A stretch of DNA of 64,000 bases from Sipunculus nudus (taxonomy: Eukaryota > Annelida > Sipuncula > Golfingiida > Sipunculidae): positions 78,445,415 to 78,509,414 of the forward strand of contig CM049317.1 of the NCBI GenBank assembly GCA_026874595.1. The letters run 5' to 3'. Within the stretch, counting starts at the first letter, position 1. Every line of letters starts with the position of its first letter. The notes below the pieces were generated by a model. It worked only from the letters and a program-made list of their open reading frames with translations. It was not told where the DNA came from and made no database searches. The translations under genes were made by a program, and so were the position numbers. Below are positions 3,490 through 47,436 of the stretch, piece after piece.

Positions 3490-4428
3490 TTATATACCCT
3501 AAGTCGACCGTTAACAGGACACAAATCGTAACCTTTAGTGCTAGAATCTTTTAACATAAAATCACGGGATATCCATGAAATCAAGGAAATCAAGAAATTA
3601 GATGTTTGTTACCCTTATCCTCTGAGCTATTGGGATCGTAAGTATCCCGAAAATAATTAAAAATTTGATACAAAAGTTCCAGTATGTGAATAAGTAATGC
3701 ACTGATTACCATGATTCTTGCATGCATACTGATCATGTAGTGTTTCATGAGATCCTGTAGACTAGTGGCGCCATCTGCATATTTATTTGCATTTTTACTC
3801 ATTTTTCCTCTATATTTGAGACCTTCAAATGAAATGATCGTCCGTTGAAAGGGCACAATTCGGAACCGTTGGACCTAGAATGTTCTCAGGCGACATCCTC
3901 GGAGGGCCATAAAAAATCTCCTTAAAACCTGAAATTAAGTTTCTGTTACCCACTTCCTCTGAGCTATGGGGCTTGTAAATTCCCCCATGGATAATTAAAA
4001 ATTTGGTTTAAAAGCTTCAGTATCTGAACAACTACTTCTTTGACCGCCATGATTTTTGTAGCGTTTCATGAGTTCCTGAAGACTAGGGGTGCCATCTGTT
4101 TTTATCTTCTATTTTATACGCATTTTTCTCTATTTTGAGTCCATCGTAAGAAGCGATCGTCGGTTCACAGGATACAGAGCGTAACCGTTTAATTTTTAAT
4201 TAAAAATCCAGGGAGATCCATGATAAATCTCCTTGGACACCGGAAATTAGGTCTCTGTTACATATATCTTCAAAGTTAAAGGGATCATAAGTATCCCTCC
4301 CCCCAGGATGATTAAAAAATTGACACGAAGCTCCAATAACTGAATAGCTAATATATTAATCACCATTATTCTTTGTATACATATTGATCATGGAATGATT
4401 CATTAGCTTGTTAAATTCATTAGAATGC
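3490..4428 (-). repeat. Degenerate 320-340 bp repeat, three tandem units
   Basis: Three diverged units can be lined up by the block 'cgt.ggttcacagg/ccgttgaaaggg' (near 3505, 3840 and 4155). This is followed by 'cgtaacc', 'gagctat.ggg.tcgtaa', 'ataattaaaaattt', a 'gtttcatgag.tcctg.agacta' block and 'ggcgccatctg'. A related unit lies at 43385-43680 in the opposite orientation: there 'aggtggcgccacc', 'cccatagctcgga' and 'ccaaggag' appear as the reverse complement. I call the window's left copies minus because the 43.4-kb copy reads forward. The last unit runs directly into the satellite array at about 4429. Confidence 0.75.
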
Positions 4429-7261
4429 TTGTTAAAATGTGATATCGAAATTCGAACTTCGTATATGCACCTATTAATACTTATATTTAATATATATATA
4501 AATGGGGCCTATAAGAGTTGTTTGGGTGAACATTGCAGAATTAATTGAAATTCCGCAAATGAGGCCAATAGGCAAAAAACACGCTGCTTGGTACTTTATG
4601 CAATCAAAATTCGAACTTCGTGTATACACTGATTTATACGCATGTTATATGTAAATGCTGCCGAAAAGAGTTGTTTGGGTGAAGATTGCGGATTAACTGA
4701 AATTCCGCATATTAGGCCAATAGGCCCGAACACGCTGCTTGGTACGTTATGTAATCGAAATTCGAACTTCGTATATGCACCTATTTATAGTCATATTATA
4801 TATAAATAGGGTAGGAAAGATTTCTTTTGTGAACATTGTAGAATCAACTGAAACTCCGTATATTAGGCCAATAGGACGAACCACGGTGCTTGGTAAAATG
4901 TGATATCGAAATTCGAACTTCGTATATGCACCTGTTTATACCCATACTAAATATATGTAAATGCGGCCGATAAGAGTTGTTCGGGTGAACATTGCAGAAT
5001 TAACTGAAATTCCGCATATGAGGCCAATAGGCCAAAACACGCTGCTTGGTACGTTATGCAATCGAAATTTGAACTTCGTGTATACACTGATTTATACGCA
5101 TATTATATATAAATGCAACCGAAAAGAGTTGACTGAGTGTACACTGGAGAATTAACTGAAACTCCGCATATAAGGTCTATATATGCCAAAAGACGCTGCT
5201 TGGTAAGTTATGCAATCGAAATTCGAACTTCGTGTATACACCTATTTATACGCATATTATACAGAAATGCAGCAGAGTTGTTTGATTGAAAATTCCAGAA
5301 CCAACTGAAACTCCGCATACAAGGCCAATAGGCCGAAAGACGCTGCTTGGTAAAATGAGATATTGAAATTCGAACTTCGTATATGCACCTATTTATACTC
5401 ATACTAAATATATATAAATGCGGTCAATAAGAGTTGTTTGGGTGAACATTGCAGAATTATCTGAAATTCCGCATATGAGGCCATTAGGCCAAAACACGCT
5501 GCTTGGTACGGTATGCAATCGAAATTCGAACTTCGTGTATACCCTGATTTATACGCATGTTATATGTAAATGCTGCCGAAAAGAGTTGTTCGGGTGAACA
5601 TTGCAGAATTAACTGAAACTCCGCATATGAGGCCAATAGGCCAAAACACGCTGCTTGGTACGTTATGCAATCGAAATTTGAACTTCGTGTATACACTGAT
5701 TTATACGCATATTATATATAAATGCAACCGAAAAGAGTTGACTGAGTGTACACTGGAGAATTAACTGAAACTCCGCATATAAGGTCTATATATGCCAAAA
5801 GACGCTGCTTGGTAAGTTATGCAATCGAAATTCGAACTTCGTGTATACACCTATTTATACGCATATTATACAGAAATGCAGCAGAGTTGTTTGATTGAAA
5901 ATTCCAGAACCAACTGAAACTCCGCATACAAGGCCAATAGGCCGAAAGACGCTGCTTGGTAAAATGAGATATTGAAATTCGAACTTCGTATATGCACCTA
6001 TTTATACTCATACTAAATATATATAAATGCGGTCAATAAGAGTTGTTTGGGTGAACATTGCAGAATTATCTGAAATTCCGCATATGAGGCCATTAGGCCA
6101 AAACACGCTGCTTGGTACGGTATGCAATCGAAATTCGAACTTCGTGTATACCCTGATTTATACGCATGTTATATGTAAATGCTGCCGAAAAGAGTTGTTT
6201 CGGTGAAGATTGCAGGATCAACTGAAACTCCGCATATAAGGCCAATAGGCCCAAACACACTGCTTGGTAAAATATGAGATCGAAATTCAATCTTCGTATA
6301 TGCACCTATTTATAGGCCTATTATATATATAAGCGACAGAAAAAGGTTTGGCTGGGTGTACATTGCAGAATCAACTGAAACTCCGCATATAAGGCCAATA
6401 GGCCAAAACACGCTGCTTGGTAAGTTATGCAATCAAAATTCGAACTTCGTGTATACACCTATTTATACGCATATTATACAGAAATGCAGCAGAGTTGTTT
6501 GATTGAAAATTCCAGAACCAACTGAAACTCCGCATACAAGGCCAATAGGCCGAAAGACGCTGCTTGGTAAAATAAGATATTGAAATTCGAACTTCGTATA
6601 TGCACCTATTTATACTCATACTAAATATATATAAATGCGGTGAATAAGAGTTGTTTGGGTGAACATTGCAGAATTAACTGAAATTCCGCATATGAGGCCA
6701 ACAGGCCAAAACACGCTGCTTGGTACGGTATGCAATCGAAATTCGAACTTCGTGTATACCCTGATTTATACGCATGTTATATGTAAATGCTGCCGAAAAG
6801 AGTTGTTTCGGTGAGGATTGCAGGATCAACTGAAACTCCGCATATAAGGCCAATAGGCCCAAACACACTGCATGGTAAAATATGAGATCGAAATTCAATC
6901 TTCGTATATGCACCTATTTATAGGCCTATTATATATATAAGCGACCGAAAAAGGTTTGGCTGGGTGTACATTGCAGAATCAACTGAAACTCCGCATATAA
7001 GGCCAATAGGCCAAAACACGCAGCTTGGTAAAATGTGATATCGAAATTCGAACTTCGTATATGCACCTATTTATACTCATACTAAATGTATATAAATGCG
7101 GCCAATAAGAGTTGTTTGGGAGAACATTGCAGAATTAACTGAAATTCCGCATATGATGCCAACAGGCCAAAACACGCTGCTTGGTACGTTATGCAATCGA
7201 AAATCGAACTTCGTGTATACACTGATTTATACGCATGTTATATGTAAATGCTGCCGAAAAG
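4429..7261 (+). repeat. SatA left flank: divergent monomers with a 4-mer HOR of 609 bp
   Basis: Monomers from 4446 to about 5062 are single, mutually divergent types with spacings of 159, 151, 151 and 156 bp. From 5063 a four-monomer unit repeats: box positions 5063, 5217, 5364 and 5520 recur at 5672, 5826, 5973 and 6129. This is a period of 609 bp (spacings 154, 147, 156 and 152). A slightly changed third copy runs from 6281 to 6888 (608 bp), and a fourth begins at 6889 and breaks off near 7261. This HOR is distinct from the 20-monomer HOR to the right, so the left edge has its own homogenisation history. Confidence 0.9.
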
Positions 7262-7671
7262 ATATCACATTTTACCAAGCACCGTGGTTCGTCCTATTGG
7301 CCTTATATACGGAGTTTCAGTTGATTCTCCAATGTTCAAAAAAAGAACTCTTTTCAACCCTATTTATATATAATATGACTATAAATAGGTGTAAACACGA
7401 AGTTCGAATTTCGATCCTATATTTTACCAAGCAACGTGTTTCCGCATATTGGCCTTTTATGTGGAGTTTCAGTTGATTCTGCAATGTTCACCAAAACAAA
7501 TCTTTTCGGAAGCATTTATGTATAATATGCCTATAAATATGTGTATATACGAAGTTCGAATTTCGATTTCATAACTTACGAAGCAGCGTGTTTTGGCCTA
7601 TTGGCCTTGCATGCGGAGTGTCAGTTGATTCTGCAATGTACACCCAGTCAACTCTTTTCGGCAGCATTACA
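7262..7671 (-). repeat. SatA inverted block, about 2.7 monomers
   Basis: Here the satellite is read on the other strand: 'cgaagttcgaatttcg', 'ggcctattggcc' and 'cggagtttcagttgattc' are exact complements of the array's boxes. The left junction lies inside a monomer, where the usual 'gccgaaaagagttg' becomes 'gccgaaaaga|tatcacattttacc'. The right junction is in 'cggcagcattacatt|ataagttatgcaatcg'. The block's sequence matches HOR monomers at 8650-9000 in one part. In the other part it matches a monomer with the 'aggacgaaccacggtgcttgg' variant near 4873. It sits exactly where the 609-bp HOR domain meets the 3030-bp HOR domain. Confidence 0.93.
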
Positions 7672-9820
7672 TTATAAGTTATGCAATCGAATTTGGAATT
7701 TTGCGAATACATTTATTTACAGGCATTTATATATAAATACGGCCGAAGAGAGTTCTTTGGATGAACTTTGCAGAACTAACTTAAATTCCACATATTAGGC
7801 CAATAGGCCAAAACACGCGTTTGGTAAAATATGAGATCGAAATTAAAACTTCGTATATACACCTATTTATAGGCATTTTATATATCAATACGGTCGAAAA
7901 GAGTTCTCTGGATGAACATTGCAGCACTAACTGAAGCTCAGTATATAAGGCAAATAGGCCAAAACAATGTGCTTCCTAAGTTATGAAACCAAAATTCGAA
8001 CTTCTTATATACACCTATTTATACGCATACTATATATAAATGCTGCCGAAAAGAATTGTTTAGGTGAATATTGCTGAATCAACTGAAACTCCTAATATAA
8101 GGCCAATATGCCAAAACACGCTGCTTGGTAAATTATGTGATTGAAATTCGAGCTTCGTATATGCACCTATTTATAGGCCTATTATATATAACTGCGACCA
8201 AGAAAGAGTTGTTTTGGTGTACATTACAGAATGAACTGAAACTCCGCATACAAGGCCAAAAGGCCAAAACACGGTGCTTGGTAAAATATGAGATCGAAAT
8301 TAAAACTTCGTATATACACCTATTTATAGGCATTTTATATATCAATACGGTCGAAAAGAGTTCTCTGGATGAACATTGCAGCACTAACTGAAGCTCAGTA
8401 TATAAGGCAAATAGGCCAAAACAATGTGCTTCCTAAGTTATGAAACCGAAATTCGAACTTCGTATATACAGCTAATTATTCTCATACTATATATATAAAT
8501 GCGGCCAAAATGTGTTGTTTGGGTAAACATTGAAGAATAAATTGAAACTCCGCACACAATACCAATAGCCAAAAACAAGCTTCTTAGTAAAATATGAGAA
8601 CGAAATTTGAACTTCCTACATATATTTATTTTAGGCATATTAAATGTAATGCTGCCGAAAAGAGTTGACTGGGTGTACATTGCAGAATCAACTGACACTC
8701 CGCATGCAAGGCCAATAGGCCAAAACACGCTGCTTCGTAAGTTATGAAATCGAAATTCGAACTTCGTATATAGACATATTTATAGGCATATTATACATAA
8801 ATGCTTCCGAAAAGATTTGTTTTGGTGAACATTGCAGAATCAACTGAAACTCCGCATAAAAGGCCAATATGCGGAAACACGTTGCTTGGTAAAATATAGG
8901 ATCGAAATTCGAACTTCGTGTTTACACCTATTTATAGTCATATTATATATAAATAGGGTTGAAAAGAGTTCTTTTTTTGAACATTGGAGAATCAACTGAA
9001 ACTTCGCATATAAGGCCAATAGGGCAAAACACGCGGCTTGGTAAAATATGAAATCGAAATTCGAACTTCGTATATACAGCTATTTATACGCATACTATAT
9101 ATTAATGCTGCCGAAAAGATTTGTTTAAATCAACATCGCAGAATCAAATGAAACTCCGCATATAAGGCCAATTGGCCAAAACACGCTGTTTCGAAAAATG
9201 TGAGAACGAATTCGAACTTCGTATATGCACCTATTTATATTCATACTATATATAAATAGGGTAGAAAAGAGTTCTTTTTGTAAACGTTGGAGAATCAACT
9301 GAAACTCAGCATATGAGGCCAATAGGCCGAAAGACGCTGCTTGGTAAAATGTGATATCGAAATTCGAACTTCGTATATGCACCTATTTATACTCATACTA
9401 TATATATATAAATGCGGCCAATAAGAGTTGTTTGGGTGAACATTGCAGAATTAACTGAAATTCCGCATATGAGGCCAATAGGCAAAAACACGCTGCTTGG
9501 TACGTTATGCAATCGAAATTCGAACTTCGTATATGCACCTATTTATACTCATACTAAATATATATAAATGCGGCCAATAAGAGTTGTTTGGGAGAACATT
9601 GCAGAATTAACTGAAATTCCGCATATGAGGCCAACAGGCCAAAACACGCTGCTTGGTACGTTATGCAATCGAAATTCGAACTTCGTGTATACACTGATTT
9701 ATACGCATGTTATATGTAAATGCTGCCGAAAAGAGTTGTTTGGGTGAAGATTGCGGATTAACTGAAATTCCGAATATTAGCCCAATAGGCCCAAACACGC
9801 TGCATGGTACGTTACGTAAT
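7672..9820 (+). repeat. SatA 3030-bp HOR, first (partial) copy
   Basis: After the inverted block the direct orientation resumes. Box positions 7688, 7838, 7990, 8142, 8295, 8447, 8601 and 8751 have the same spacings as 10718 to 11781 in the next copy (both 1063 bp). The copy is truncated at its left end by the inversion breakpoint. It continues through monomers at 8903, 9055, 9207, 9358, 9514 and 9670 to the anchor at 9821, where 'cttcttgtatccgcc' is used here to start each HOR copy. Confidence 0.9.
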
Positions 9821-12800
9821 CGAAATTCGAACTTCTTGTATCCGCCTATTTATACGCATATTATATATAAATAGGGTATGAAAGAGTTCTTTTGTGAACA
9901 TTGTAGAATCAACTGAAACTCCGTATAAGGCCAATAGGACGAAACACGGTGCTTGGTAAAATGTGATATCGAAATTCGAACTTCGTATATGCACTCATAC
10001 TGTATATATAAATGCGGCCAATAAGAGTTGTTTGTGTGAACATTGCAGAATTAACTGAAATTCCGCATATAAGGCCAATAGGCAAAAACACGCTGCTTGG
10101 TACCTTATGCAATCGAAATCCGAATTTCTTGTATACACTTATTTATACGCATATTATATATAAATGCAGCCGAAAAGAGTTGACTGGGTGTACATTGGAG
10201 AATTAACTGAGACCGCATATAAGGTCAATATATGCCAAAAGACGCTGTTTGGTAAGTTATGCAATCGAAATTCGAACTTCGTGTATACCCCTATTTATAC
10301 GCATATTATACAGGAATGCAGCAGAGTTGTTTGATTGAATTTTCCAGAACCAACTGAAACTCCGCATATAAGGCCAATAGGGCAAAACACGCTGCTTGGT
10401 AAAATATGAAATCGGAATTCCATGTTCGTGTATGGACCTATTTATAGGCGTATTATATATAAAAGCGACCGAAAAACTTTTGACTGCGTGTACATTGCAG
10501 AAACAACTGGAACTCCGCATATAAGGCCAATATAAGCCAAAACACGCTGCTTGGTAACTTATGAGATCGAAATTCGAACTTCGTATATACAGCTATTTAT
10601 AGCATATTATATATAAATGCTTCCGAAAAGAGTTGTTATGGTGAATATTGCAGAATTAAGTGAAATTCCGCATATAAGGCCAACAGACCAAATACGCTGC
10701 TTTTTAAGTTATGCAATCGAATTTGGAATTTTGCGAATACACTTATTTACAGGCATTTATATATAAATACGGCCGAAAAGAGTTCTTTGGATGAACTTTG
10801 CAGAACTAACTTAAATTCCACATATTAGGCTAAAAGGCAAAAACACGCGTTTGGTAAAATATGAGATCGAAATTAAAACTTCGTATATACACCTATTTAT
10901 AGGAATTTTATATATCAATACGGTCGAAAAGAGTTCTCTGGATGAACATTGCAGCACTAACTGAAGCTCAGTATATAAGGCAAATAGGCCAAAACAATGT
11001 GCTTCCTAAGTTATGAAACCAAAATTCGAACTTCTTATATACACCTATTTATACGCATACTATATATAAATGCTGCCGAAAAGAGTTGTTTAGGTGAATA
11101 TTGCTGAATCAACTGAAACTCCTAATATAAGGCCAATATGCCAATACACGCTGCTTGGTAAAATATGTGATTGAAATTCGAGCTTCGTATATGCACCTAT
11201 TTATAGGCCTATTATATATAACTGCGACCAAGAAAGAGTTGTTTTGGTGTACATTACAGAATGAACTGAAACTCCGCATACAAGGCCAATAGGCCAAAAC
11301 ACGGTGCTTGGTAAAATATGAGATCGAAATTAAAACTTCGTATATACACCTATTTATAGGCATTTTATATATAAATACGGTCGAAAAGAGTTCTCTGGAT
11401 GAACATTGCAGCACTAACTGAAGCTCAGTATATAAGGCAAATAGGCCAAAACAATGTGCTTCCTAAGTTATGAAACCAAAATTCGAACTTCGTATATACA
11501 GCTAATTATTCTCATACTATATATATAAATGCGGCCAAAATGTGTTGTTTGGGTAAACATTGAAGAATAAATTGTAACCCCGCACACAATACCAATAGCC
11601 AAAAACAAGCTTCTTGGTAAAATATGAGAACGAAATTTGAACTTCCTACATATATTTATTTTAGGCATATTACATGTAATGCTGCCGAAAAGAGTTGACT
11701 GGGTGTACATTGCAGAATCAACTGACACTCCGCATGTAAGGCCAATAGGCCAAAACACGCTGCTTCGTAAGTTATGAAATCGAAATTCGAACTTCGTATA
11801 TACACATATTTATAGGCATATTATACATAAATGCTTCCGAAAAGATTTGTTTTGGTGAACATTGCAGAATCAACTGAAACTCCGCATAAAAGGCCAATAT
11901 GCGGAAACACGTTGCTTGGTAAAATATAGGATCGAAATTCGAACTTCGTGTTTACACCTATTTATAGTCATATTATATATAAATAGGGTTGAAAAGAGTT
12001 CTTTTTTTGAACATTGGAGAATCAACTGAAACTTCGCATATAAGGCCAATAGGGCAAAACACGCGGCTTGGTAAAATATGAAATCGAAATTCGAACTTCG
12101 TATATACAGCTATTTATACGCATACTATATATTAATGCTGCCGAAAAGATTTGTTTAAATCAACATCGCAGAATCAAATGAAACTCCGCATATAAGGTCA
12201 ATTGGCCAAAACACGCTGTTTCGAAAAATGTGAGAACGAATTCGAACTTCGTATATGCACCTATTTATATTCATACTATATATAAATAGGGTAGAAAAGA
12301 GTTCTTTTTGTAAACGTTGGAGAATCAACTGAAACTCAGCATATGAGGCCAATAGGCCGAAAGACGCTGCTTGGTAAAATGTGATATCGAAATTCGAACT
12401 TCGTATATGCACCTATTTATACTCATACTATATATATATAAATGCGGCCAATAAGAGTTGTTTGGGTGAACATTGCAGAATTAACTGAAATTCCGCATAT
12501 GAGGCCAATAGGCAAAAACACGCTGCTTGGTACGTTATGCAATCGAAATTCGAACTTCGTATATGCACCTATTTATACTCATACTAAATATATATAAATG
12601 CGGCCAATAAGAGTTGTTTGGGAGAACATTGCAGAATCAACTGAAATTCCGCATATGAGGCCAACAGGCCAAAACACGCTGCTTGGTACGTTATGCAATC
12701 GAAATTCGAACTTCGTGTATACACTGATTTATACGCATGTTATATGTAAATGCTGCCGAAAAGAGTTGTTTGGGTGAAGATTGCGGATTAACTGAAATTC

Positions 12801-12850
12801 CGAATATTAGCCCAATAGGCCCAAACACGCTGCATGGTACGTTACGTAAT
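9821..12850 (+). repeat. SatA HOR copy 1, canonical 20 monomers, 3030 bp
   Basis: Twenty monomers with individual spacings of 144-156 bp run from one 'cttcttgtatccgcc' anchor to the next. Each monomer position has private variants: one monomer has 'ggccaattggcc' as a perfect palindrome, one has 'cctacatatatttattttagg', and one has 'cggaattccatgttcgtgtatgg'. These markers let later copies be aligned. This copy carries the A-type start: 'tagggtatgaaagag', and 'ataaggccaataggcaaaaac' near 10071. Confidence 0.93.
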
Positions 12851-15358
12851 CGAAATTCGAACTTCTTGTATCCGCCTATTTATACGCATATTATATATAA
12901 ATAGGGTAGGAAAGAGTTCTTTTGTGAACATTGTAAAATCAACTGAAACTCCGTATAAGGCCAATAGGACGAAACACGGTGCTTGGTAAAATGTGATATC
13001 GAAATTCGAACTTCGAATATGCACTCATACTATATATATAAATGCGGCCAATAAGAGTTGTTTGTGTGAACATTGCAGAATTAACTGAAATTCCGCATAT
13101 GAGGCCAATAGGCAAAAACACGCTGCTTGGTACCTTATGCAATCGAAATCCGAATTTCTTGTATACACTTATTTATACGCATATTATATATAAATGCAGC
13201 CGAAAAGAGTTGACTGGGTGTACATTGGAGAATTAACTGATACTCCGCATATAAGGTCAATATATGCCAAAAGACGCTGTTTGGTAAGTTATGCAATCGA
13301 AATTCGAATTTCGTGTATACCCCTATTTATACGCATATTATACAGAAATGCAGCAGAGTTGTTTGATTGAATTTTCCAGAACCAACTGAAACTCCGCATA
13401 TAAGGCCAATAGGGCAAAACACGCTGCTTGGTAAAATATGAAATCGGAATTCCATGTTCGTGTATGGACCTATTTATAGGCGTATTATATATAAAAGCGA
13501 CCGAAAAACTTTTGACTGCGTGTACATTGCAGAAACAACTGGAACTCCGCATATAAGGCCAATATAAGCCAAAACACGCTGCTTGGTAACTTATGAGATC
13601 GAAATTCGAACTTCGTATATACAGCTATTTATAGCATATTATATATAAATGCTTCCGAAAAGAGTTGTTATGGTGAATATTGCAGAATTAAGTGAAATTC
13701 CGCATATAAGGCCAGCAGACCAAATACGCTGCTTTGTAAGTTATGCAATCGAATTTGGAATTTTGCGAATACATTTATTTACAGGCATTTATATATAAAT
13801 ACGGCCGAAAAGAGTTCTTTGGATGAACTTTGCAAAACTAACTTAAATTGCATATATAGGCATTTTATATATTTTATATATAAATAGGGTCGAAAAGAGT
13901 TCTCTGGATGAACATTGCAGCACTAACTGAAGCTCAGTATATAAGGCAAATAGGCCAAAACAATGTGCTTCCTAAGTTATGAAACCAAAATTCGAACTTC
14001 GTATATACAGCTAATTATTCTCATACTATATATATAAATGCGGCCAAATGTGTTGTTTGGGTAAACATTGAAGAATAAATTGAAACTCCGCACACAATAC
14101 CAATAGCCAAAAACAAGCTTCTTGGTAAAATATGAGAACGAAATTTGAACTTCCTACATATATATATTTTAGGCATATTAAATGTAATGCTGCCGAAAAG
14201 AGTTGACTGGGTGTACATTGCAGAATCAACTGACACTCCGCATGCAAGGCCAATAGGCCAAAACACGCTGCTTCGTAAGTTATGAAATCGAAATTCGAAC
14301 TTCGTATATAGACATATTTATAGTCATATTATACATAAATGCTTCCGAAAAGATTTGTTTTGGTGAACATTGCAGAATCAACTGAAACTCCGCATAAAAG
14401 GCCAATATGCGGAAACACGTTGCTTGGTAAAATATAGGATCGAAATTCGAACTTCGTGTTTACACCTATTTATAGTCATATTATATATAAATAGGGTTGA
14501 AAAGAGTTCTTTTTTTTAACATTGGAGAATCAACTGAAACATCGCATATAAGGCCAACAGGGCAAAACACGCGGCTTTGTAAAATATGAAATCGAAATTC
14601 GAACTTCGTATATACAGCTATTTATACGCATACTATATATTAATGCTGCCGAAAAGATTTGTTTAAATCAACATCGCAGAATCAAATGAAACTCCGCATA
14701 TAAGGCCAATTGGCCAAAACACGCTGTTTCGAAAAATGTGAGAACGAATTCGAACTTCGTATATGCACCTATTTATATTCATACTATATATAAATAAGGT
14801 AGAAAAGAGTTCTTTTTGTAAACATTGGAGAATCAACTGAAACTCAGCATATGAGGCCAATAGGCCGAAAGACGCTGCTTGGTAAAATGTGATATCGAAA
14901 TACGAACTTCGTATATGCACCTATTTATACTCATACTATATATATATAAATGCGGCCAACAAGAGTTGTTTGGGTGAACATTGCAGAATTAACTGAAATT
15001 CCGCATATGAGGCCAATAGGCAAAAACACGCTGCTTGGTACGTTATGCAATCGAAATTCGAACTTCGTATATGCACCTATTTATACTCATACTAAATATA
15101 TATAAATGCGGCCAATAAGAGTTGTTTGGGAGAACATTGCAGAATTAACTGAAATTCCGCATATGAGGCCAACAGGCCAAAACACGCTGCTTGGTACGTT
15201 ATGCAATCGAAATTCGAACTTCGTGTATACACTGATTTATACGCATGTTATATGTAAATGCTGCCGAAAAGAGTTGTTTGGGTGAAGATTGCGGATTAAC
15301 TGAAATTCCGAATATTAGCCCAATAGGCCCAAACACGCTGCATGGTACGTTACGTAAT
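12851..15358 (+). repeat. SatA HOR copy 2, 2508-bp deletion variant
   Basis: This is the same HOR with a 522-bp net loss. The interval corresponding to five canonical monomers (10718-11477, 759 bp) is replaced by one hybrid monomer of about 236 bp (13750-13986). The breakpoint lies at 'aacttaaattgcatatataggcatttt' around 13845-13870. The loss is not a whole number of monomers, so the deletion was out of register. The B-type start ('cgaacttcgaatatgcac', 13008-13025) marks this copy. Confidence 0.9.
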
Positions 15359-21200: not shown

Positions 21201-21264
21201 ATTAACTGAAATTCCGAATATTAGCCCAATAGGCCCAAACACGCTGCATGGTACGTTACGTAAT
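18239..21264 (+). repeat. SatA HOR copy 4, 3026 bp, internally mosaic
   Basis: The copy still has 20 monomers, but three are out of place. After the box at 20349 the canonical neighbours are absent. Instead, monomers normally found about 1 kb earlier in the HOR (those with 'gcagcactaactgaagctcag', 'gctgaatcaactgaaactct' and 'tacagaatgaactg') occupy about 20430-20870. The order then returns to canonical at 'gagttgtttggctgaacattg'. Six spacings of 152, 152, 153, 152, 156 and 151 bp replace a canonical 918-bp stretch with 916 bp. Confidence 0.85.
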
Positions 21265-24200: not shown

Positions 24201-24294
24201 CGAAAAGAGTTGTTTGGGTGAAGATTGCGGATTAACTGAAATTCCGAATATTAGCCCAATAGGCCCAAACACGCTGCATGGTACGTTACGTAAT
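21265..24294 (+). repeat. SatA HOR copy 5, 3030 bp
   Basis: Full-length 20-monomer HOR. Its first monomers mix C-type variants ('tatataaaaatagggtagg' near 21306) with A-type variants ('actgtatatataaatgcgg' and 'ataaggccaataggcaaaaac' near 21445-21535). The copy therefore looks like a recombinant between HOR lineages, with the switch within about 150 bp. Confidence 0.88.
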
Positions 24295-27024: not shown

Positions 27025-30000
27025 CGAAATTCGAACTTCTTGTATCCGCCTATTTATACGCATATTATATATAAATAGGGTAGGAAAGAGTTCTTTTGTG
27101 AACATTGTAAAATCAACTGAAACTCCGTATAAGGCCAATAGGACGAAACACGGTGCTTGGTAAAATGTGATATCGAAATTCGAACTTCGAATATGCACTC
27201 ATACTATATATATAAATGCGGCCAATAAGAGTTGTTTGTGTGAACATTGCAGAATTAACTGAAATTCCGCATATGAGGCCAATAGGCAAAAACACGCTGC
27301 TTGGTACCTTATGCAATCGAAATCCGAATTTCTTGTATACACTTATTTATACGCATATTATATATAAATGCAGCCGAAAAGAGTTGACTGGGTGTACATT
27401 GGAGAATTAACTGATACTCCGCATATAAGGTCAATATATGCCAAAAGACGCTGTTTGGTAAGTTATGCAATCGAAATTCGAATTTCGTGTATACCCCTAT
27501 TTATACGCATATTATACAGAAATGCAGCAGAGTTGTTTGATTGAATTTTCCAGAACCAACTGAAACTCCGCATATAAGGCCAATAGGGCAAAACACGCTG
27601 CTTGGTAAAATATGAAATCGGAATTCCATGTTCGTGTATGGACCTATTTATAGGCGTATTATATATAAAAGCGACCGAAAAACTTTTGACTGCGTGTACA
27701 TTGCAGAAACAACTGGAACTCCGCATATAAGGCCAATATAAGCCAAAACACGCTGCTTGGTAACTTATGAGATCGAAATTCGAACTTCGTATATACAGCT
27801 ATTTATAGCATATTATTGATATGCTTCCGAAAAGAGTTGTTATGGTGAATATTGCAGAATTAAGTGAAATTCCGCATATAAGGCCAACAGACAAAATACG
27901 CTGCTTTGTAAGTTATGCAATCGAATTTGGAATTTTGCGAATACATTTATTTACAGGCATTTATATATAAATAAGGCCGAAAAGAGTTCTTTGGATGAAC
28001 TTTGCAAAACTAACTTAAATTGCATATATAGGCATTTTATATATTTTATATATAAATAGGGTCGAAAAGAGTTCTCTGGATGAACATTGCAGCACTAACT
28101 GAAGCTCAGTATATAAGGCAAATAGGCCAAAACAATGTGCTTCCTAAGTTATGAAACCAAAATTCGAACTTCGTATATACAGCTAATTATTCTCATACTA
28201 TATATATAAATGCGGCCAAATGTGTTGTTTGGGTAAACATTGAAGAATAAATTGAAACTCCGCACACAATACCAATAGCCAAAAACAAGCTTCTTGGTAA
28301 AATATGAGAACGAAATTTGAACTTCCTACATATATATATTTTAGGCATATTAAATGTAATGCTGCCGAAAAGAGTTGACTGGGTGTACATTGCAGAATCA
28401 ACTGACACTCCGCATGCAAGGCCAATAGGCCAAAACACGCTGCTTCGTAAGTTATGAAATCGAAATTCGAACTTCGTATATAGACATATTTATAGTCATA
28501 TTATACATAAATGCTTCCGAAAAGATTTGTTTTGGTGAACATTGCAGAATCAACTGAAACTCCGCATAAAAGGCCAATATGCGGAAACACGTTGCTTGGT
28601 AAAATATAGGATCGAAATTCGAACTTCGTGTTTACACCTATTTTTAGTCATATTATATATAAATAGGGTTGAAAAGAGTTCTTTATTTTAACATTGGAGA
28701 ATCAACTGAAACATCGCATATAAGGCCAACAGGGCAAAACACGCGGCTTTGTAAAATATGAAATCGAAATTCGAACTTCGTATATACAGCTATTTATACG
28801 CATATTATACAGGAATGCAGCAGAGTTGTTTGATTGAATTTTCCAGAACCAACTGAAACTCCGCATATAAGGCCAATAGGGCAAAACACGCTGCTTGGTA
28901 AAATATGAAATCGGAATTCCATGTTCGTGTATGGACCTATTTATAGGCGTATTATATATAAAAGCGACCGAAAAACTTTTGACTGCGTGTACATTGCAGA
29001 AACAACTGGAACTCCGCATATAAGGCCAATATAAGCCAAAACACGCTGCTTGGTAACTTATGAGATCGAAATTCGAACTTCGTATATACAGCTATTTATA
29101 GCATATTATATATAAATGCTTCCGAAAAGAGTTGTTATGGTGAATATTGCAGAATTAAGTGAAATTCCGCATATAAGGCCAACAGACCAAATACGCTGCT
29201 TTGTAAGTTATGTAATCGAATTTGGAATTTTGCGAATACATTTATTTACAGGCATTTATATATAAATACGGCCGAAAAGAGTTCTTTGGATGAACTTTGC
29301 AGAACTAACTTAAATTCCACATATTAGGCCAATAGGCCAAAACACGCGTTTGGTAAAATATGAGATCGAAATTAAAACTTCGTATATACACCTATTTATA
29401 GGCATTTTATATATCAATACGGTCAAAAATAGTTCTCTGGATGAACATTGCAGCACTAACTGAAGCTCAGTATATAAGGCAAATAGGCCAAAACAATGTG
29501 CTTCCTAAGTTATGAAACCAAAATTCGAACTTCTTATATACACCTATTTATACGCATACTATATATAAATGCTGCCGAAAAGAATTGTTTAGGTGAATAT
29601 TGCTGAATCAACTGAAACTCCTAATATAAGGCCAATATGCCAAAACACGCTGCTTGGTAAATTATGTGATTGAAATTCGAGCTTCGTATATGCACCTATT
29701 TATAGGCCTATTATATATAACTGCGACCAAGAAAGAGTTGTTTTGGTGTACATTACAGAATGAACTGAAACTCCGCATACAAGGCCAATAGGCCAAAACA
29801 CGGTGCTTGGTAAAATATGAGATCGAAATTAAAACTTCGTATATACACCTATTTATAGGCATTTTATATATCAATACGGTCGAAAAGAGTTCTCTGGATG
29901 AACATTGCAGCACTAACTGAAGCTCAGTATATAAGGCAAATAGGCCAAAACAATGTGCTTCCTAAGTTATGAAACCAAAATTCGAACTTCGTATATACAG

Positions 30001-31349
30001 CTAATTATTCTCATACTATATATATAAATGCGGCCAAAATGTGTTGTTTGGGTAAACATTGAAGAATAAATTGAAACTCCGCACACAATACCAATAGCCA
30101 AAAACAAGCTTCTTAGTAAAATATGAGAACGAAATTTGAACTTCCTACATATATTTATTTTAGGCATATTAAATGTAATGCTGCCGAAAAGAGTTGACTG
30201 GGTGTACATTGCAGAATCAACTGACACTCCGCATGCAAGGCCAATAGGCCAAAACACGCTGCTTCGTAAGTTATGAAATCGAAATTCGAACTTCGTATAT
30301 AGACATATTTATAGGCATATTATACATAAATGCTTCCGAAAAGATTTGTTTTGGTGAACATTGCAGAATCAACTGAAACTCCGCATAAAAGGCCAATATG
30401 CGGAAACACGTTGCTTGGTAAAATATAGGATCGAAATTCGAACTTCGTGTTTACACCTATTTATAGTCATATTATATATAAATAGGGTTGAAAAGAGTTC
30501 TTTTTTTGAACATTGGAGAATCAACTGAAACTTCGCATATAAGGCCAATAGGGCAAAACACGCGGCTTGGTAAAATATGAAATCGAAATTCGAACTTCGT
30601 ATATACAGCTATTTATACGCATACTATATATTAATGCTGCCGAAAAGATTTGTTTAAATCAACATCGCAGAATCAAATGAAACTCCGCATATAAGGCCAA
30701 TTGGCCAAAACACGCTGTTTCGAAAAATGTGAGAACGAATTCGAACTTCGTATATGCACCTATTTATATTCATACTATATATAAATAGGGTAGAAAAGAG
30801 TTCTTTTTGTAAACGTTGGAGAATCAACTGAAACTCAGCATATGAGGCCAATAGGCCGAAAGACGCTGCTTGGTAAAATGTGATATCGAAATTCGAACTT
30901 CGTATATGCACCTATTTATACTCATACTATATATATATAAATGCGGCCAATAAGAGTTGTTTGGGTGAACATTGCAGAATTAACTGAAATTCCGCATATG
31001 AGGCCAATAGGCAAAAACACGCTGCTTGGTACGTTATGCAATCGAAATTCGAACTTCGTATATGCACCTATTTATACTCATACTAAATATATATAAATGC
31101 GGCCAATAAGAGTTGTTTGGGAGAACATTGCAGAATTAATTGAAATTTCGCATATGAGGCCAACAGGCCAAAACACGCTGCTTGGTACGTTATGCAATCG
31201 AAATTCGAACTTCGTGTATACACTGATTTATACGCATGTTATATGTAAATGCTGCCGAAAAGAGTTGTTTGGGTGAAGATTGCGGATTAACTGAAATTCC
31301 GAATATTAGCCCAATAGGCCCAAACACGCTGCATGGTACGTTACGTAAT
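27025..31349 (+). repeat. SatA HOR copy 7, 4325-bp expanded chimera
   Basis: It begins as a B-type copy with the same out-of-register deletion as copy 2 ('aaattgcatatataggcatttt' near 28018). Near 28795-28805, 'cagctatttatacgcat' jumps back to 'attatacaggaatgcagcag', a monomer normally found 12 positions earlier, and the HOR then proceeds again. The gain over 2508 bp is 1817 bp, or 12 monomers of about 151.4 bp. This is the reciprocal type of product to the deletions seen in other copies. Confidence 0.87.
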
Positions 31350-34300
31350 CGAAATTCGAACTTCTTGTATCCGCCTATTTATACGCATATTATATATAAA
31401 TAGGGTATGAAAGAGTTCTTTTGTGAACATTGTAGAATCAACTGAAACTCCGTATAAGGCCAATAGGACGAAACACGGTGCTTGGTAAAATGTGATATCG
31501 AAATTTGAACTTCGTATATGCACTCATACTGTATATATAAATGCGGCCAATAAGAGTTGTTTGTGTGAACATTGCAGAATTAACTGAAATTCCGCATATA
31601 AGGCCAATAGGCAAAAACACGCTGCTTGGTACCTTATGCAATCGAAATCCGAATTTCTTGTATACACTTATTTATACGCATATTATATATAAATGCAGCC
31701 GAAAAGAGTTGACTGGGTGTACATTGGAGAATTAACTGAGACCGCATATAAGGTCAATATATGCCAAAAGACGCTGTTTGGTAAGTTATGCAATCGAAAT
31801 TCGAACTTCGTGTATACCCCTATTTATACGCATATTATACAGGAATGCAGCAGAGTTGTTTGATTGAATTTTCCAGAACCAACTGAAACTCCGCATATAA
31901 GGCCAATAGGGCAAAACACGCTGCTTGGTAAAATATGAAATCGGAATTCCATGTTCGTGTATGGACCTATTTATAGGCGTATTATATATAAAAGCGACCG
32001 AAAAACTTTTGACTGCGTGTACATTGCAGAAACAACTGGAACTCCGCATATAAGGCCAATATAAGCCAAAACACGCTGCTTGGTAACTTATGAGATCGAA
32101 ATTCGAACTTCGTATATACAGCTATTTATAGCATATTATATATAAATGCTTCCGAAAAGAGTTGTTATGGTGAATATTGCAGAATTAAGTGAAATTCCGC
32201 ATATAAGGCCAACAGACCAAATACGCTGCTTTTTAAGTTATGCAATCGAATTTGGAATTTTGCGAATACACTTATTTACAGGCATTTATATATAAATACG
32301 GCCGAAAAGAGTTCTTTGGATGAACTTTGCAGAACTAACTTAAATTCCACATATTAGGCTAAAAGGCAAAAACACGCGTTTGGTAAAATATGAGATCGAA
32401 ATTAAAACTTCGTATATACACCTATTTATAGGAATTTTATATATCAATACGGTCCAAAAGAGTTCTCTGGATGAACATTGCAGCACTAACTGAAGCTCAG
32501 TATATAAGGCAAATAGGCCAAAACAATGTGCTTCCTAAGTTATGAAACCAAAATTCGAACTTCTTATATACACCTATTTATACGCATACTATATATAAAT
32601 GCTGCCGAAAAGAATTGTTTAGGTGAATATTGCTGAATCAACTGAAACTCCTAATATAAGGCCAATATGCCAAAACACGCTGCTTGGTAAATTATGTGAT
32701 TGAAATTCGAGCTTCGTATATGCACCTATTTATAGGCCTATTATATATAACTGCGACCAAGAAAGAGTTGTTTTGGTGTACATTACAGAATGAACTGAAA
32801 CTCCGCATACAAGGCCAATAGGCCAAAACACGGTGCTTGGTAAAATATGAGATCGAAATTAAAACTTCGTATATACACCTATTTATAGGCATTTTATATA
32901 TCAATACGGTCGAAAAGAGTTCTCTGGATGAACATTGCAGCACTAACTGAAGCTCAGTATATAAGGCAAATAGGCCAAAACAATGTGCTTCCTAAGTTAT
33001 GAAACCAAAATTCGAACTTCGTATATACAGCTAATTATTCTCATACTATATATATAAATGCGGCCAAAATGTGTTGTTTGGGTAAACATTGAAGAATAAA
33101 TTGAAACTCCGCACACAATACCAATAGCCAAAAACAAGCTTCTTAGTAAAATATGAGAACGAAATTTGAACTTCCTACATATATTTATTTTAGGCATATT
33201 ACATGTAATGCTGCCGAAAAGAGTTGACTGGGTGTACATTGCAGAATCAACTGACACTCCGCATGCAAGGCCAATAGGCCAAAACACGCTGCTTCGTAAG
33301 TTATGAAATCGAAATTCGAACTTCGTATATAGACATATTTATAGGCATATTATACATAAATGCTTCCGAAAAGATTTGTTTTGGTGAACATTGCAGAATC
33401 AACTGAAACTCCGCATAAAAGGCCAATATGCGGAAACACGTTGCTTGGTAAAATATAGGATCGAAATTCGAACTTCGTGTTTACACCTATTTATAGTCAT
33501 ATTATATATAAATAGGGTTGAAAAGAGTTCTTTTTTTGAACATTGGAGAATCAACTGAAACTTCGCATATAAGGCCAATAGGGCAAAACACGCGGCTTGG
33601 TAAAATATGAAATCGAAATTCGAACTTCGTATATACAGCTATTTATACGCATACTATATATTAATGCTGCCGAAAAGATTTGTTTAAATCAACATCGCAG
33701 AATCAAATGAAACTCCGCATATAAGGCCAATTGGCCAAAACACGCTGTTTCGAAAAATGTGAGAACGAATTCGAACTTCGTATATGCACCTATTTATATT
33801 CATGCTATATATAAATAGGGTAGAAAAGAGTTCTTTTTGTAAACGTTGGAGAATCAACTGAAACTCAGCATATGAGGCCAATAGGCCGAAAGACGCTGCT
33901 TGGTAAAATGTGATATCGAAATTCGAACTTCGTATATGCACCTATTTATACTCATACTATATATATATAAATGCGGCCAATAAGAGTTGTTTGGGTGAAC
34001 ATTGCAGAATTAACTGAAATTCCGCATATGAGGCCAATAGGCAAAAACACGCTGCTTGGTACGTTATGCAATCGAAATTCGAACTTCGTATATGCACCTA
34101 TTCATACTCATACTAAATATATATAAATGCGGCCAATAAGAGTTGTTTGGGAGAACATTGCAGAATCAACTGAAATTCCGCATATGAGGCCAACAGGCCA
34201 AAACACGCTGCTTGGTACGTTATGCAATCGAAATTCGAACTTCGTGTATACACTGATTTATACGCATGTTATATGTAAATGCTGCCGAAAAGAGTTGTTT

Positions 34301-34379
34301 GGGTGAAGATTGCGGATTAACTGAAATTCCGAATATTAGCCCAATAGGCCCAAACACGCTGCATGGTACGTTACGTAAT
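31350..34379 (+). repeat. SatA HOR copy 8, canonical 3030 bp
   Basis: Full-length 20-monomer copy with the A-type start ('tagggtatgaaagag' near 31402). It is almost the same as copy 1 at the marker positions I compared, and like copy 1 it is followed by a B-type deletion variant. This supports an ancestral A+B pair. Confidence 0.9.
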
Positions 34380-36731
34380 CGAAATTCGAACTTCTTGTAT
34401 CCGCCTATTTATACGCATATTATATATAAATAGGGTAGGAAAGAGTTCTTTTGTGAACATTGTAAAATCAACTGAAACTCCGTATAAGGCCAATAGGACG
34501 AAACACGGTGCTTGGTAAAATGTGATATCGAAATTCGAACTTCGAATATGCACTCATACTATATATATAAATGCGGCCAATAAGAGTTGTTTGTGTGAAC
34601 ATTGCAGAATTAACTGAAATTCCGCATATGAGGCCAATAGGCAAAAACACGCTGCTTGGTACCTTATGCAATCGAAATCCGAATTTCTTGTATACACTTA
34701 TTTATACGCATATTATATATAAATGCAGCCGAAAAGAGTTGACTGGGTGTACATTGGAGAATTAACTGATACTCCGCATATAAGGTCAATATATGCCAAA
34801 AGACGCTGTTTGGTAAGTTATGCAATCGAAATTCGAATTTCGTGTATACCCCTATTTATACGCATATTATACAGAAATGCAGCAGAGTTGTTTGATTGAA
34901 TTTTCCAGAACCAACTGAAACTCCGCATATAAGGCCAATAGGGCAAAACACGCTGCTTGGTAAAATATGAAATCGGAATTCCATGTTCGTGTATGGACCT
35001 ATTTATAGGCGTATTATATATAAAAGCGACCGAAAAACTTTTGACTGCGTGTACATTGCAGAAACAACTGGAACTCCGCATATAAGGCCAATATAAGCCA
35101 AAACACGCTGCTTGGTAACTTATGAGATCGAAATTCGAACTTCGTATATACAGCTATTTATAGCATATTATATATAAATGCTTCCGAAAAGAGTTGTTAT
35201 GGTGAATATTGCAGAATTAAGTGAAATTCCGCATATAAGGCCAACAGACCAAATACGCTGCTTTGTAAGTTATGCAATCGAATTTGGAATTTTGCGAATA
35301 CATTTATTTACAGGCATTTATATATAAATACGGCCGAAAAGAGTTCTTTGGATGAACTTTGCAGAACTAACTTAAATTGCATATATAGGCATTTTATATA
35401 TTTTATATATAAATACGGTCGAAAAGAGTTCTCTGGATGAACATTGCAGCACTAACTGAAGCTCAGTATATAAGGCAAATAGGCCAAAACAATGTGCTTC
35501 CTAAGTTATGAAACCAAAATTCGAACTTCGTATATACAGCTAATTATTCTCATACTATATATATAAATGCGGCCAAATGTGTTGTTTGGGTAAACATTGA
35601 AGAATAAATTGAAACTCCGCACACAATACCAATAGCCAAAAACAAGCTTCTTGGTAAAATATGAGAACGAAATTTGAACTTCCTACATATATATATTTGA
35701 GGCATATTAAATGTAATGCTGCCGAAAAGAGTTGACTGGGTGTACATTGCAGAATCAACTGACACTCCGCATGCAAGGCCAATAGGCCAAAACACGCTGC
35801 TTCGTAAGTTATGAAATCGAAATTCGAACTTCGTATATAGACATATTTATAGGCATATTATACATAAATGCTTCCGAAAAGATTTGTTTTGGTGAACATT
35901 GCAGAATCAACTGAAACTCCGCATAAAAGGCCAATATGCGGAAACACGTTGCTTGGTAAAATATAGGATCGAAATTCGAACTTCGTGTTTACACCTATTT
36001 ATAGTCATATTATATATAAATAGGGTTGAAAAGAGTTCTTTTTTTGAACATTGGAGAATCAACTGAAACATCGCATATAAGGCCAATAGGGCAAAACACG
36101 CGGCTTGGTAAAATATGAAATCGAAATTCGAACTTCGTATATACAGCTATTTATACGCATACTATATATTAATGCTGCCGAAAAGATTTGTTTAAATCAA
36201 CATCGCAGAATCAAATGAAACTCCGCATATAAGGCCAATTGGCCAAAACACGCTGTTTCGAAAAATGTGAGAACGAATTCGAACTTCGTATATGCACCTA
36301 TTTATATTCATACTATATATAAATAGGGTAGAAAAGAGTTCTTTTTGTAAACGTTGGAGAATCAACTGAAACTCAGCATATGAGGCCAATAGGCCGAAAG
36401 ACGCTGCTTGGTAAAATGTGATATCGAAATTCGAACTTCGTATATGCACCTATTTATACTCATACTATATATATATAAATGCGGCCAAATAGAGTTGTTT
36501 GGGTGAACATTGCAGAATTAACTGAAATTCCGCATATGAGGCCAACAGGCCAAAACACGCTGCTTGGTACGTTATGCAATCGAAATTCGAACTTCGTGTT
36601 TACACTGATTTATACGCATGTTATATGTAAATGCTGCCGAAAAGAGTTGTTTGGGTGAAGATTGCGGATTAACTGAAATTCCGAATATTAGCCCAATAGG
36701 CCCAAACACGCTGCATGGTACGTTACGTAAT
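34380..36731 (+). repeat. SatA HOR copy 9, 2352 bp, deletion variant minus one more monomer
   Basis: It carries the 522-bp deletion of copy 2 (junction near 35380) and a further 156-bp loss near 36485. There 'gcggccaaatagagttg' joins two monomers that normally sit side by side and have near-identical 156-bp spacing. The arithmetic is exact (2508 - 156 = 2352). Confidence 0.88.
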
Positions 36732-39629
36732 CGAAATTCGAACTTCTTGTATCCGCCTATTTATACGCATATTATATATAAATAGGGTATGAAAGAGTTC
36801 TTTTGTGAACATTGTAGAATCAACTGAAACTCCGTATAAGGCCAATAGGACGAAACACGGTGCTTGGTAAAATGTGATATCGAAATTCGAACTTCGTATA
36901 TGCACTCATACTGTATATATAAATGCGGCCAATAAGAGTTGTTTGTGTGAACATTGCAGAATTAACTGAAATTCCGCATATAAGGCCAATAGGCAAAAAC
37001 ACGCTGCTTGGTACCTTATGCAATCGAAATCCGAATTTCTTGTATACACTTATTTATACGCATATTATATATAAATGCAGCCGAAAAGAGTTGACTGGGT
37101 GTACATTGGAGAATTAACTGAGACCGCATATAAGGTCAATATATGCCAAAAGACGCTGTTTGGTAAGTTATGCAATCGAAATTCGAACTTCGTGTATACC
37201 CCTATTTATACGCATATTATACAGGAATGCAGCAGAGTTGTTTGATTGAATTTTCCAGAACCAACTGAAACTCCGCATATAAGGCCAATAGGGCAAAACA
37301 CGCTGCTTGGTAAAATATGAAATCGGAATTCCATGTTCGTGTATGGACCTATTTATAGGCGTATTATATATAAAAGCGACCGAAAAACTTTTGACTGCGT
37401 GTACATTGCAGAAACAACTGGAACTCCGCATATAAGGCCAATATAAGCCAAAACACGCTGCTTGGTAACTTATGAGATCGAAATTCGAACTTCGTATATA
37501 CAGCTATTTATAGCATATTATATATAAATGCTTCCGAAAAGAGTTGTTATGGTGAATATTGCAGAATTAAGTGAAATTCCGCATATAAGGCCAACAGACC
37601 AAATACGCTGCTTTTTAAGTTATGCAATCGAATTTGGAATTTTGCGAATACACTTATTTACAGGCATTTATATATAAATACGGCCGAAAAGAGTTCTTTG
37701 GATGAACTTTGCAGAACTAACTTAAATTCCACATATTAGGCTAAAAGGCAAAAACACGCGTTTGGTAAAATATGAGATCCAAATTAAAACTTCGTATATA
37801 CACCTATTTATAGGAATTTTATATATCAATACGGTCCAAAAGAGTTCTCTGGATGAACATTGCAGCACTAACTGAAGCTCAGTATATAAGGCAAATAGGC
37901 CAAAACAATGTGCTTCCTAAGTTATGAAACCAAAATTCGAACTTCTTATATACACCTATTTATACGCATACTATATATAAATGCTGCCGAAAAGAGTTGT
38001 TTAGCTGAATATTGCTGAATCAACTGAAACTCCTAATATAAGGCCAATATGCCAAAACACGCTGCTTGGTAAAATATGTGATTGAAATTCGAGCTTCGTA
38101 TATGCACCTATTTATAGGCCTATTATATATAACTGCGACCAAGAAAGAGTTGTTTTGGTGTACATTACAGAATGAACTGAAACTCCGCATACAAGGCCAA
38201 TAGGCCAAAACACGGTGCTTGTTAAAATATGAGATCGAAATTAAAACTTCGTATATACACCTATTTATAGGCATTTTATATATAAATACGGTCGAAAAGA
38301 GTTCTCTGGATGAACATTGCAGCACTAACTGAAGCTCAGTATATAAGGCAAATAGGCCAAAACAATGTGCTTCCTAAGTTATGAAACCAAAATTCGAACT
38401 TCGTATATACAGCTAATTATTCTCATACTATATATATAAATGCGGCCAAAATGTGTTGTTTGGGTAAACATTGAAGAATAAATTGAAACCCCGCACACAA
38501 TACCAATAGCCAAAAACAAGCTTCTTGGTAAAATATGAGAACGAAATTTGAACTTCCTACATATATTTATTTTAGGCATATTACATGTAATGCTGCCGAA
38601 AAGAGTTGACTGGGTGTACATTGCAGAATCAACTGACACTCCGCATGTAAGGCCAATAGGCCAAAACACGCTGCTTCGTAAGTTATGAAATCGAAATTCG
38701 AACTTCGTATATACACATATTTATAGGCATATTATACATAAATGCTTCCGAAAAGATTTGTTTTGGTGAACATTGCAGAATCAACTGAAACTCCGCATAA
38801 AAGGCCAATATGCGGAAACACGTTGCTTGGTAAAATATAGGATCGAAATTCGAACTTCGTGTTTACACCTATTTATAGTCATATTATATATAAATAGGGT
38901 TGAAAAGAGTTCTTTTTTTGAACATTGGAGAATCAACTGAAACTTCGCATATAAGGCCAATAGGGCAAAACACGCGGCTTGGTAAAATATGAAATCGAAA
39001 TTCGAACTTCGTATATACAGCTATTTATACGCATACTATATATCAATGCTGCCGAAAAGATTTGTTTAAATCAACATCGCAGAATCAAATGAAACTCCGC
39101 ATATAAGGCCAATTGGCCAAAACACGCTGTTTCGAAAAATGTGAGAACGAATTCGAACTTCGTATATGCACCTATTTATATTCATACTATATATAAATAG
39201 GGTAGAAAAGAGTTCTTTTTGTAAACGTTGGAGAATCAACTGAAACTCAGCATATGAGGCCAATAGGCCGAAAGACGCTGCTTGGTAAAATGTGATATCG
39301 AAATTCGAACTTCGTATATGCACCTATTTATACTCATACTATATATATATAAATGCGGCCAATAAGAGTTGTTTGGGTGAACATTGCAGAATTAACTGAA
39401 ATTCCGCATATGAGGCCAATAGGCAAAAACACGCTGCTTGGTACGTTATGCAATCGAAATTCGAACTTCGTATATGCACCTATTTATACTCATACTAAAT
39501 ATATATAAATGCGGCCAATAAGAGTTGTTTGGGTGAACATTGCAGAATTAACTGAAATTCCGCATATGAGGCCAATAGGCAAAAACACGCTGCTTGGTAC
39601 GTTATGCAATCGAAATTCGAACTTCGTGT
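36732..39629 (+). repeat. SatA HOR copy 10, truncated at array end
   Basis: The A-type copy runs in canonical order to the monomers around 39310-39600 and stops inside the constant box at 'gaacttcgtgta'. The last two 156-bp monomers both carry 'gggtgaacattg' and 'caataggcaaaaac'. In canonical copies the second reads 'gggagaacattg' and 'caacaggccaaaac'. The terminal monomer was therefore converted or duplicated from its neighbour. Confidence 0.85.
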
Positions 39630-43265: not shown

Positions 43266-43384
43266 TGATCAATAAACACACACGGTTTTGGGACACTAGA
43301 TGAAATCACAGCTGAGAAACTGACATGATTGTTGTTATTTTATGGTAAAACAATTAGAAAAATTTACGTTAAAATAAGAAAGAA

Positions 43385-47381: not shown

Positions 47382-47385
<4 letters not shown>
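46591..47385. other. Low-copy DNA with two 'aggtggcaccact' relics
   Basis: The short phrase 'ataggtggcaccact' occurs at about 46758 and again at about 47049. It matches the conserved 'aggtggcgccaccact' end of the 43.4-kb family copy, so each is probably the remnant of a diverged unit about 290 bp long. No gene is seen. Confidence 0.5.

Positions 47386-47436
<51 letters not shown>
47386..47436. repeat. (AT)n dinucleotide tract, about 50 bp
   Basis: Uninterrupted alternating AT/TA following 'ctatacaat' and ending in 'gaaatatgaaagc'. Perfectly self-complementary, so able to extrude as a cruciform and prone to length polymorphism. Confidence 0.97.

Follow-up and report, generated by a model that had tools for sequence, protein, structure and literature searches.

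The literature on satellite higher-order repeats (HORs) of at least 20 monomers centres on those of primate centromeres. Here, we ask whether a satellite array of Sipunculus nudus is organised as such a long HOR, where on the chromosome it lies and how it might have arisen. The array is contained in a window of 64,000 bp (C12:78,445,415-78,509,414, C12 being the window's contig, CM049317.1) of a 1.43-Gb assembly of 153 contigs, in which C1-C17 each measure 61-111 Mb and eight sampled contigs from C18 onward 52-103 kb. The first-pass annotation had described a tandem array of ~151.5-bp monomers at 4429-39629 of this window. We confirmed it as a 152-bp monomer repeated between 4426 and 39638. 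The limits were set by combining Tandem Repeats Finder (TRF) rows, which cover 4426-39627 with periods of 152 and 456, with a profile hidden Markov model trained on the window's own monomers; this model gave 240 matches, of which 235 were retained and five, all on the minus strand and each of 5.3 bits, were discarded.

The right part of the array is a 20-monomer HOR

The right part of the array is a long HOR of 20 monomers, with a unit of 3,030 bp. Unless a contig is named, coordinates are those of the window, and the features concerned are:

4426-39638, plus strand except for the inverted block 7264-7701: 152-bp satellite array, located by TRF and profile hidden Markov model
7674-39590, plus strand: 20-mer HOR array of 12 copies, with the monomer order J K1 L M K2 N O H G P Q A1 A2 B C A3 D E R S
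10698-13728, plus strand: canonical 20-mer of 3,031 bp (copy 2), the reference for monomer order

Since monomer positions were assigned through the nearest reference monomer, a reference-free comparison of lags between monomers is the fairer test. Results showed that lag 20 had the lowest mean divergence of 41 lags (0.133), the others ranging from 0.182 to 0.232 with lag 36 as the second best (0.182). At the nucleotide level, 3030 was the most frequent spacing of successive identical 30-mers (4,246 occurrences). The unit length was thus established through lags and not through the spacings of a conserved box; ungapped lags taken across the whole array underestimate the HOR because the copies carrying deletions disrupt the register. 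Hierarchical clustering at 10% divergence yielded 21 monomer clusters in a recurring order, and 202 of the 211 neighbour pairs followed the canonical order, compared to a mean of 10.8 and a maximum of 25 in 1,000 shuffles. Together with the minimum at lag 20, these transitions reveal diverged monomers arranged in an ordered, repeated unit. In addition, copies of the unit are far closer to each other than the monomers within it, with a divergence of 1.27% between monomers at the same position (964 pairs) versus 22.2% at different positions (20,151 pairs). The 3,030-bp 20-mer proposed for the right side of the array therefore stands, and the 20-state periodicity on which the first-pass annotation had staked this claim is present, lag 20 being the best of those compared.

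Five of the 12 copies are canonical, namely the reference and those starting at 7674, 22142, 29197 and 32227. From copy 1 to copy 12, the number of monomers is 20, 20, 17, 19, 20, 20, 18, 9, 20, 20, 16 and 13; one of the 20-monomer copies carries L-M-K2 where P-Q-A1 would be expected, and the last copy is truncated at the array end.

HOR copies share deletions and duplicated blocks

The five canonical copies are 98.9-99.7% identical to each other. Counted on aligned columns, 42 of the 66 copy pairs reached at least 97% identity and 29 at least 98.5%. The complete range was 86.4-99.7%; the lowest values belong to the 9-monomer copy 8, and low pairs involve deleted or rearranged copies. Two features describe how the copies depart from, or repeat, one another:

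13730-13962, plus strand: J/K2 hybrid junction, leaving its copy ~522 bp short of the canonical unit, with L, M and approximately one more monomer absent
7674-14673, plus strand: multi-HOR block repeated 21,529 bp to the right, with 99-100% identity in 14 consecutive 500-bp steps

Nearly the same junction recurs at 27902-28134 and 35259-35491, so that copies 3, 8 and 11 have a near-identical J/K2 hybrid in common; when 150 bp of each junction were compared, two were identical and the third showed 2 base differences. At the 21,529-bp offset, 17 steps were compared in all, and the last three, located at or past a deletion, fell to 0.86, 0.29 and 0.27. The 99-100% identity of the preceding steps indicates that blocks of HORs have been copied.

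The left block has a common ancestry with the 20-mer

The 4-mer HOR of 609 bp announced for the left side is present, although it is small: two copies, one variant and one truncated form. The left part of the array comprises:

4426-7263, plus strand: left block of 19 monomers, A B C A D E A B D E A B F E A B F A B, the last one partial
5043-6258, plus strand: two copies of the 4-mer D-E-A-B, of 609 and 608 bp
6261-6866, plus strand: one copy of the variant 4-mer F-E-A-B
6869-7263, plus strand: truncated F-A-B
7264-7701, minus strand: inverted block of types G, H and a portion of O where the 4-mer meets the 20-mer, with 28 bp shared with the first J monomer

Divergence between the 4-mer copies, variant included, was 0.0 for D, 0.0-0.007 for E, 0.0-0.032 for A and 0.007-0.060 for B, the B monomers of the two D-E-A-B copies being ~5% apart. 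Left monomers differ by 3-9% from their canonical namesakes, with the exception of F, which is 11% away from R. The two HORs had been described as nested and unrelated. Neither description held: they lie side by side, and a collinear alignment joins 4426-5343 to canonical-unit positions 1845-2727 (A2-B-C-A3-D-E) at 92.2% identity. For the left block, 1,206 columns could be aligned to the canonical 20-mer at 89.2%. The inverted block, of which the first-pass annotation made no mention, contains 408 bp that match canonical positions 977-1384 on the minus strand at 97.5%. From the collinear alignment and this inverted piece we concluded that the two HORs are adjacent, related and parted by an inverted fragment; the left and right blocks are of common ancestry. 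The idea of two unrelated HOR systems was accordingly rejected, as the monomer lineages and their order are common to both.

The right end of the array is abrupt:

39591-39638, plus strand: truncated last monomer of 48 bp

Straight after it, at 39639-40640, a degenerate ~400-bp repeat rich in AACGTT was noticed by eye.

The array probably lies in a subtelomeric position

On its contig, the array occupies C12:78,449,840-78,485,052 of a total of 78,550,287 bp, so that 65-100 kb separate it from the contig end. At C12:78,538,712-78,539,015, 11.3 kb before the contig end and 54 kb from the array, lies an imperfect (TTAGGG)n tract of ~304 bp, on the strand expected of a right-hand telomere. The array is thus close to telomeric sequence in the assembly, and its position is probably subtelomeric. 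In the 41 kb of C12 past the window we found other tandem repeats and no copy of the monomer. The last 13 kb of the contig contain a ~169-bp tandem family with TTAGGG inserts and an 18-bp repeat in 89 copies.

A genome search with the telomere pattern produced 1,181 overlapping matches, compared to 0 for the control pattern. Telomeric tracts of at least three units were present in three of 16 pieces containing the family outside the window (on C9, C11 and C13), each at most ~1.5 kb from a monomer, the C9 tract having just four units. Six interior control pieces contained neither such a tract nor a monomer. Separately, the matches listed from the genome search fall in one tract, a long internal (CCCTAA)n stretch at C2:404083-404774, 404 kb from the contig start, which may mark the true telomere or a misjoin.

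The family forms different repeats at different contig ends

Allowing at most one mismatch, the box TCGAAATTCGAACTTCGT of the monomer occurred at 1,077 places in the genome, compared to 6 for the reversed pattern; 124 matches fell in the window and 0 in shuffles of it. The family is present on at least six of the 17 large contigs. Among the matches listed, clusters were located at C2 571-655 kb, C8 18.6 Mb, C9 0.78 and 1.42 Mb, C11 0.32 Mb, C12, and C13 33-66 kb and 304-410 plus 481-489 kb, the last two being taken as one. Seven of these eight listed clusters lie at most 1.5 Mb from a contig end, a zone that makes up 3.6% of the genome (simple binomial, 6e-10). In the complete list of one rare-variant pattern search, all 17 matches were at most 0.8 Mb away from an end.

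In a tree that joined 788 monomers of six chromosomes (C8, C9 and C11 being represented by 2, 8 and 3 monomers, respectively), the chromosome label changed 10 times, versus at least 265 in 50 shuffles. Monomer clades are therefore chromosome-specific. Three of these contigs also carry long-period repeats of their own: the 20-mer on C12; a 10-mer and spacings of 28, ~34 and 43 monomers on C13, where the 34- and 43-monomer periods come from one sample each; and a 7.6-kb composite on C2. For C13, the best monomer lag was 10 at 33-43 kb (divergence 0.079); 28 at 316-326 kb (0.032), with 91.9% ungapped identity at 4,242 bp; 43 at 332-342 kb (0.000), with 100% identity at 6,517 bp, although the 10-kb sample has a self-overlap of just 3.5 kb at that offset; and 34 at 352-372 kb (0.097), barely ahead of 33 (0.099), with 86.9% at 5,158 bp. 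The C13 samples at 400-410 and 481-489 kb gave no clear long period. The composite unit of C2 measures 7,614 bp and combines monomers and just under 4 kb of other sequence, two compared copies being 99.3% identical; 5 kb of N lie near or in this array.

The C13 arrays change orientation. At C13:33.0-39.2 kb the 10-mer HOR forms a palindrome with arms of 2,780 bp and 99.96% identity around an internal (CCCTAA)n tract, which may represent a recent rearrangement or an assembly fold-back. Other inverted arms on this contig reached, at best, 97.3% identity at 60-66 kb, 92.0% at 400-410 kb and 89.2% at 481-489 kb.

Origin of the array

Taken together, these results make it likely that the array is the chromosome-end copy of a telomere-associated satellite family that unequal exchange and the duplication of blocks amplified separately at several ends. 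According to this proposal, the 152-bp monomer would have become established close to five or more chromosome ends and would have diverged into many types ~20% apart. On C12, a stretch of 20 monomers would then have been amplified as one unit, through unequal exchange or gene conversion, into 12 copies. Mispairing of look-alike monomers (J/K2, A1/A2) could have generated the copies with deletions, and several HORs at a time would have been duplicated, as at the 21.5-kb offset. The left 4-mer would correspond to a more diverged margin of the same array, with a separate duplication of four monomers and a small inversion parting it from the 20-mer. At least two further chromosome ends, those of C13 and C2, would have made long-period repeats of their own from the same family. 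Exchange is the presumed mechanism, and the contig ends presumably correspond to chromosome ends.

Several observations weigh against this proposal. C12 has no terminal telomere, its last 1.7 kb being occupied by a different, ~169-bp satellite. The window and 13 of the 16 family pieces lack a telomeric tract of three units, and the difference between 3/16 and 0/6 is, by itself, weak. One small relic, at C8 18.6 Mb, is interior, and the coverage of C14-C17 and of the unplaced contigs consisted of scoring 40 of 91 candidates plus the one rare-variant search. Finally, HOR copies are often closer to distant copies than to their neighbours (copy 1 is nearest to copy 9, at 99.7%, and copy 3 to copy 11, at 99.1%), so that purely local exchange is insufficient.

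A broader proposition, which we regard as possible rather than likely, is that single chromosome ends of this animal develop multi-level HORs of their own out of a common subtelomeric monomer, some of them mirrored as large inverted arrays that flank internal telomeric DNA. If so, recombination restricted to chromosome ends would generally lead to HORs, which would no longer be a mark peculiar to centromeres, and the mirrored arrays would suggest that break-induced or fold-back repair drives their formation.

Among the alternatives, the array could belong to a centromere located at the contig end, on a telocentric or acrocentric chromosome, and its HOR would then be truly equivalent to that of alpha satellite. 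Active centromeric satellites typically have HORs, the length of the monomer is close to that of nucleosomal DNA, and the C13 matches span 304.6-407.1 kb in oppositely oriented arrays. Nevertheless, the C12 array extends over just ~35 kb, telomeric tracts adjoin the family on three contigs, among the matches listed the family is found on 6 of the 17 large contigs, and no significant CENP-B-like box could be detected (p = 0.06-0.25), all of which makes a centromere unlikely. The parallel with alpha satellite drawn by the first-pass annotation is sound for the long HOR; the centromere at which it hints is unlikely, as position and telomeric tracts point to a subtelomere.

The repeats could also be tandem repeats internal to a transposable element inserted near chromosome ends, comparable to the Helitrons of bivalves, in which two studies document short satellite arrays (PMC5139131, PMC8268682). 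The C2 unit, with its monomers combined with nearly 4 kb of other DNA, would suit such an element; the ~230 monomers in a single array on C12, the location of seven of the eight listed clusters near contig ends and the lack of any Pfam domain above cut-off in the 9 flanking open reading frames scanned, of 40 listed (three matches, every one under the cut-off), do not, and we judge this origin more improbable still.

Least probable of all is that the HOR order is an assembly artefact made of collapsed or duplicated copies: the order is known from assembled sequence alone, the C13 palindrome is a possible fold-back and 5 kb of N interrupt the C2 array, but HOR copies bear different deletions, further long-period repeats of the family exist on C13 and C2, and the longest exact repeat in the C12 array is 1,367 bp, a length far exceeded by accurate long reads.

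Base composition and monomer conservation

The ratio of observed to expected CpG was 1.28 in the HOR array, 0.46 in the flank 39641-49300 and 0.34-0.89 in the six interior pieces. The high ratio of the array would fit unmethylated or recently copied DNA. Conservation was also compared along the monomer. The columns of the box, which looks palindromic, averaged 0.914 versus 0.861 over all columns in 116 representative monomers. This box leads the 16-20-bp windows when all copies are counted, but not among the 116 representatives, in which no window exceeded column permutation (the best windows, located outside the box, gave p values of 0.06-0.25). A CENP-B-like conserved box is thus unsupported, its conservation not being significantly above that of the rest of the monomer. 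The array would appear to be a product of chromosome-end recombination with at most a structural role. It would be structural or selfish DNA, with no role that depends on its particular sequence.

Searches of the window gave 0 matches in Rfam and 0 tRNA genes. A search for the molluscan hemocyanin domain had no match; since the 14 control genomes were likewise negative, it was uninformative on the suggestion that the DNA comes from a mollusc.

Comparison with other satellites

As in primate alpha satellite, diverged monomers follow one another in an ordered unit whose copies are highly similar, with deletion variants of the unit and chromosome-specific types. The two are set apart by monomer length (152 bp here and ~171 bp in alpha satellite). 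Moreover, in contrast to alpha satellite, the present array lies near a contig end, extends over tens of kb instead of Mb and has no significant CENP-B-like box. A super-HOR of 58 monomers has reportedly been found on the orangutan Y chromosome (PMC12428378).

Like the array described here, the subtelomeric satellite khipu of common bean is a tandem family at chromosome ends, unevenly distributed among them and subject to local duplication; khipu clades mix units from most chromosome ends, whereas those of S. nudus are almost chromosome-private, and the words "higher order" are absent from its main text (PMC3797529). In Tribolium, the available text reports satellite HORs in an invertebrate and large, oppositely oriented arrays resembling those of C13, although these are multi-megabase and likely (peri)centromeric, unlike the array described here (PMC13081366). 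The HORs of low-copy satellites of T. castaneum are given as dimers in the portion available, in contrast to the 20-mer (PMC10218199). The discussion section of a scallop paper mentions HOR units (PMC5874043). HORs are thus already known from outside the primates.

Judged from their names, the bivalve satellites BIV160 and Cg170 have a similar monomer length. According to one study, Cg170 and BIV160 have two conserved motifs in common and a similarity of 64.6%, and bivalve satellite repeats, flanks included, are described as belonging to Helitrons (PMC5139131). For a clam satellite, HORs were sought and none found, according to the excerpted text (PMC5537241). In the text at hand of a review, the term HOR occurs once, in the reference list (PMC10048060); the available text of the golden mussel satellitome contains neither "higher-order" nor "HOR" (PMC12818792), and that of the oyster satellitome neither "higher-order" nor "higher order" (PMC8268682). 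Within the open-access literature, subscription papers being largely outside this search, no title or beginning of an abstract named a long HOR in molluscs or in subtelomeres.

What is unusual here is the length of the HOR, its probable subtelomeric place and its independence on each chromosome. A family that is probably non-centromeric, with several independent long-period repeats at different ends, offers replicated natural experiments on the origin of HORs, be it by unequal exchange, conversion or break-induced replication, in a setting free of selection for kinetochore binding.

Neighbouring satellites in the window

Other tandem repeats accompany the array. A second satellite of ~100 bp, with a GC content of about 0.54, occupies 49302-57371, and its unit contains GCCGCCAGGGGGAG, which we take to resemble the CTCF core motif. 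With at most one mismatch, this sequence has 74 matches in the window, all on the plus strand, compared to 0.01 expected; two of them stand just before the second-satellite array. A third satellite of ~77 bp, at 59822-62954, includes the internal telomere-like sequence GGGTTACCCTAACCC. Repeats of ~166/413 bp at 63162-63972 and a 125-bp repeat at positions 1-300 of piece L001 both carry TTTGCTACCGCGCA or nearly so.

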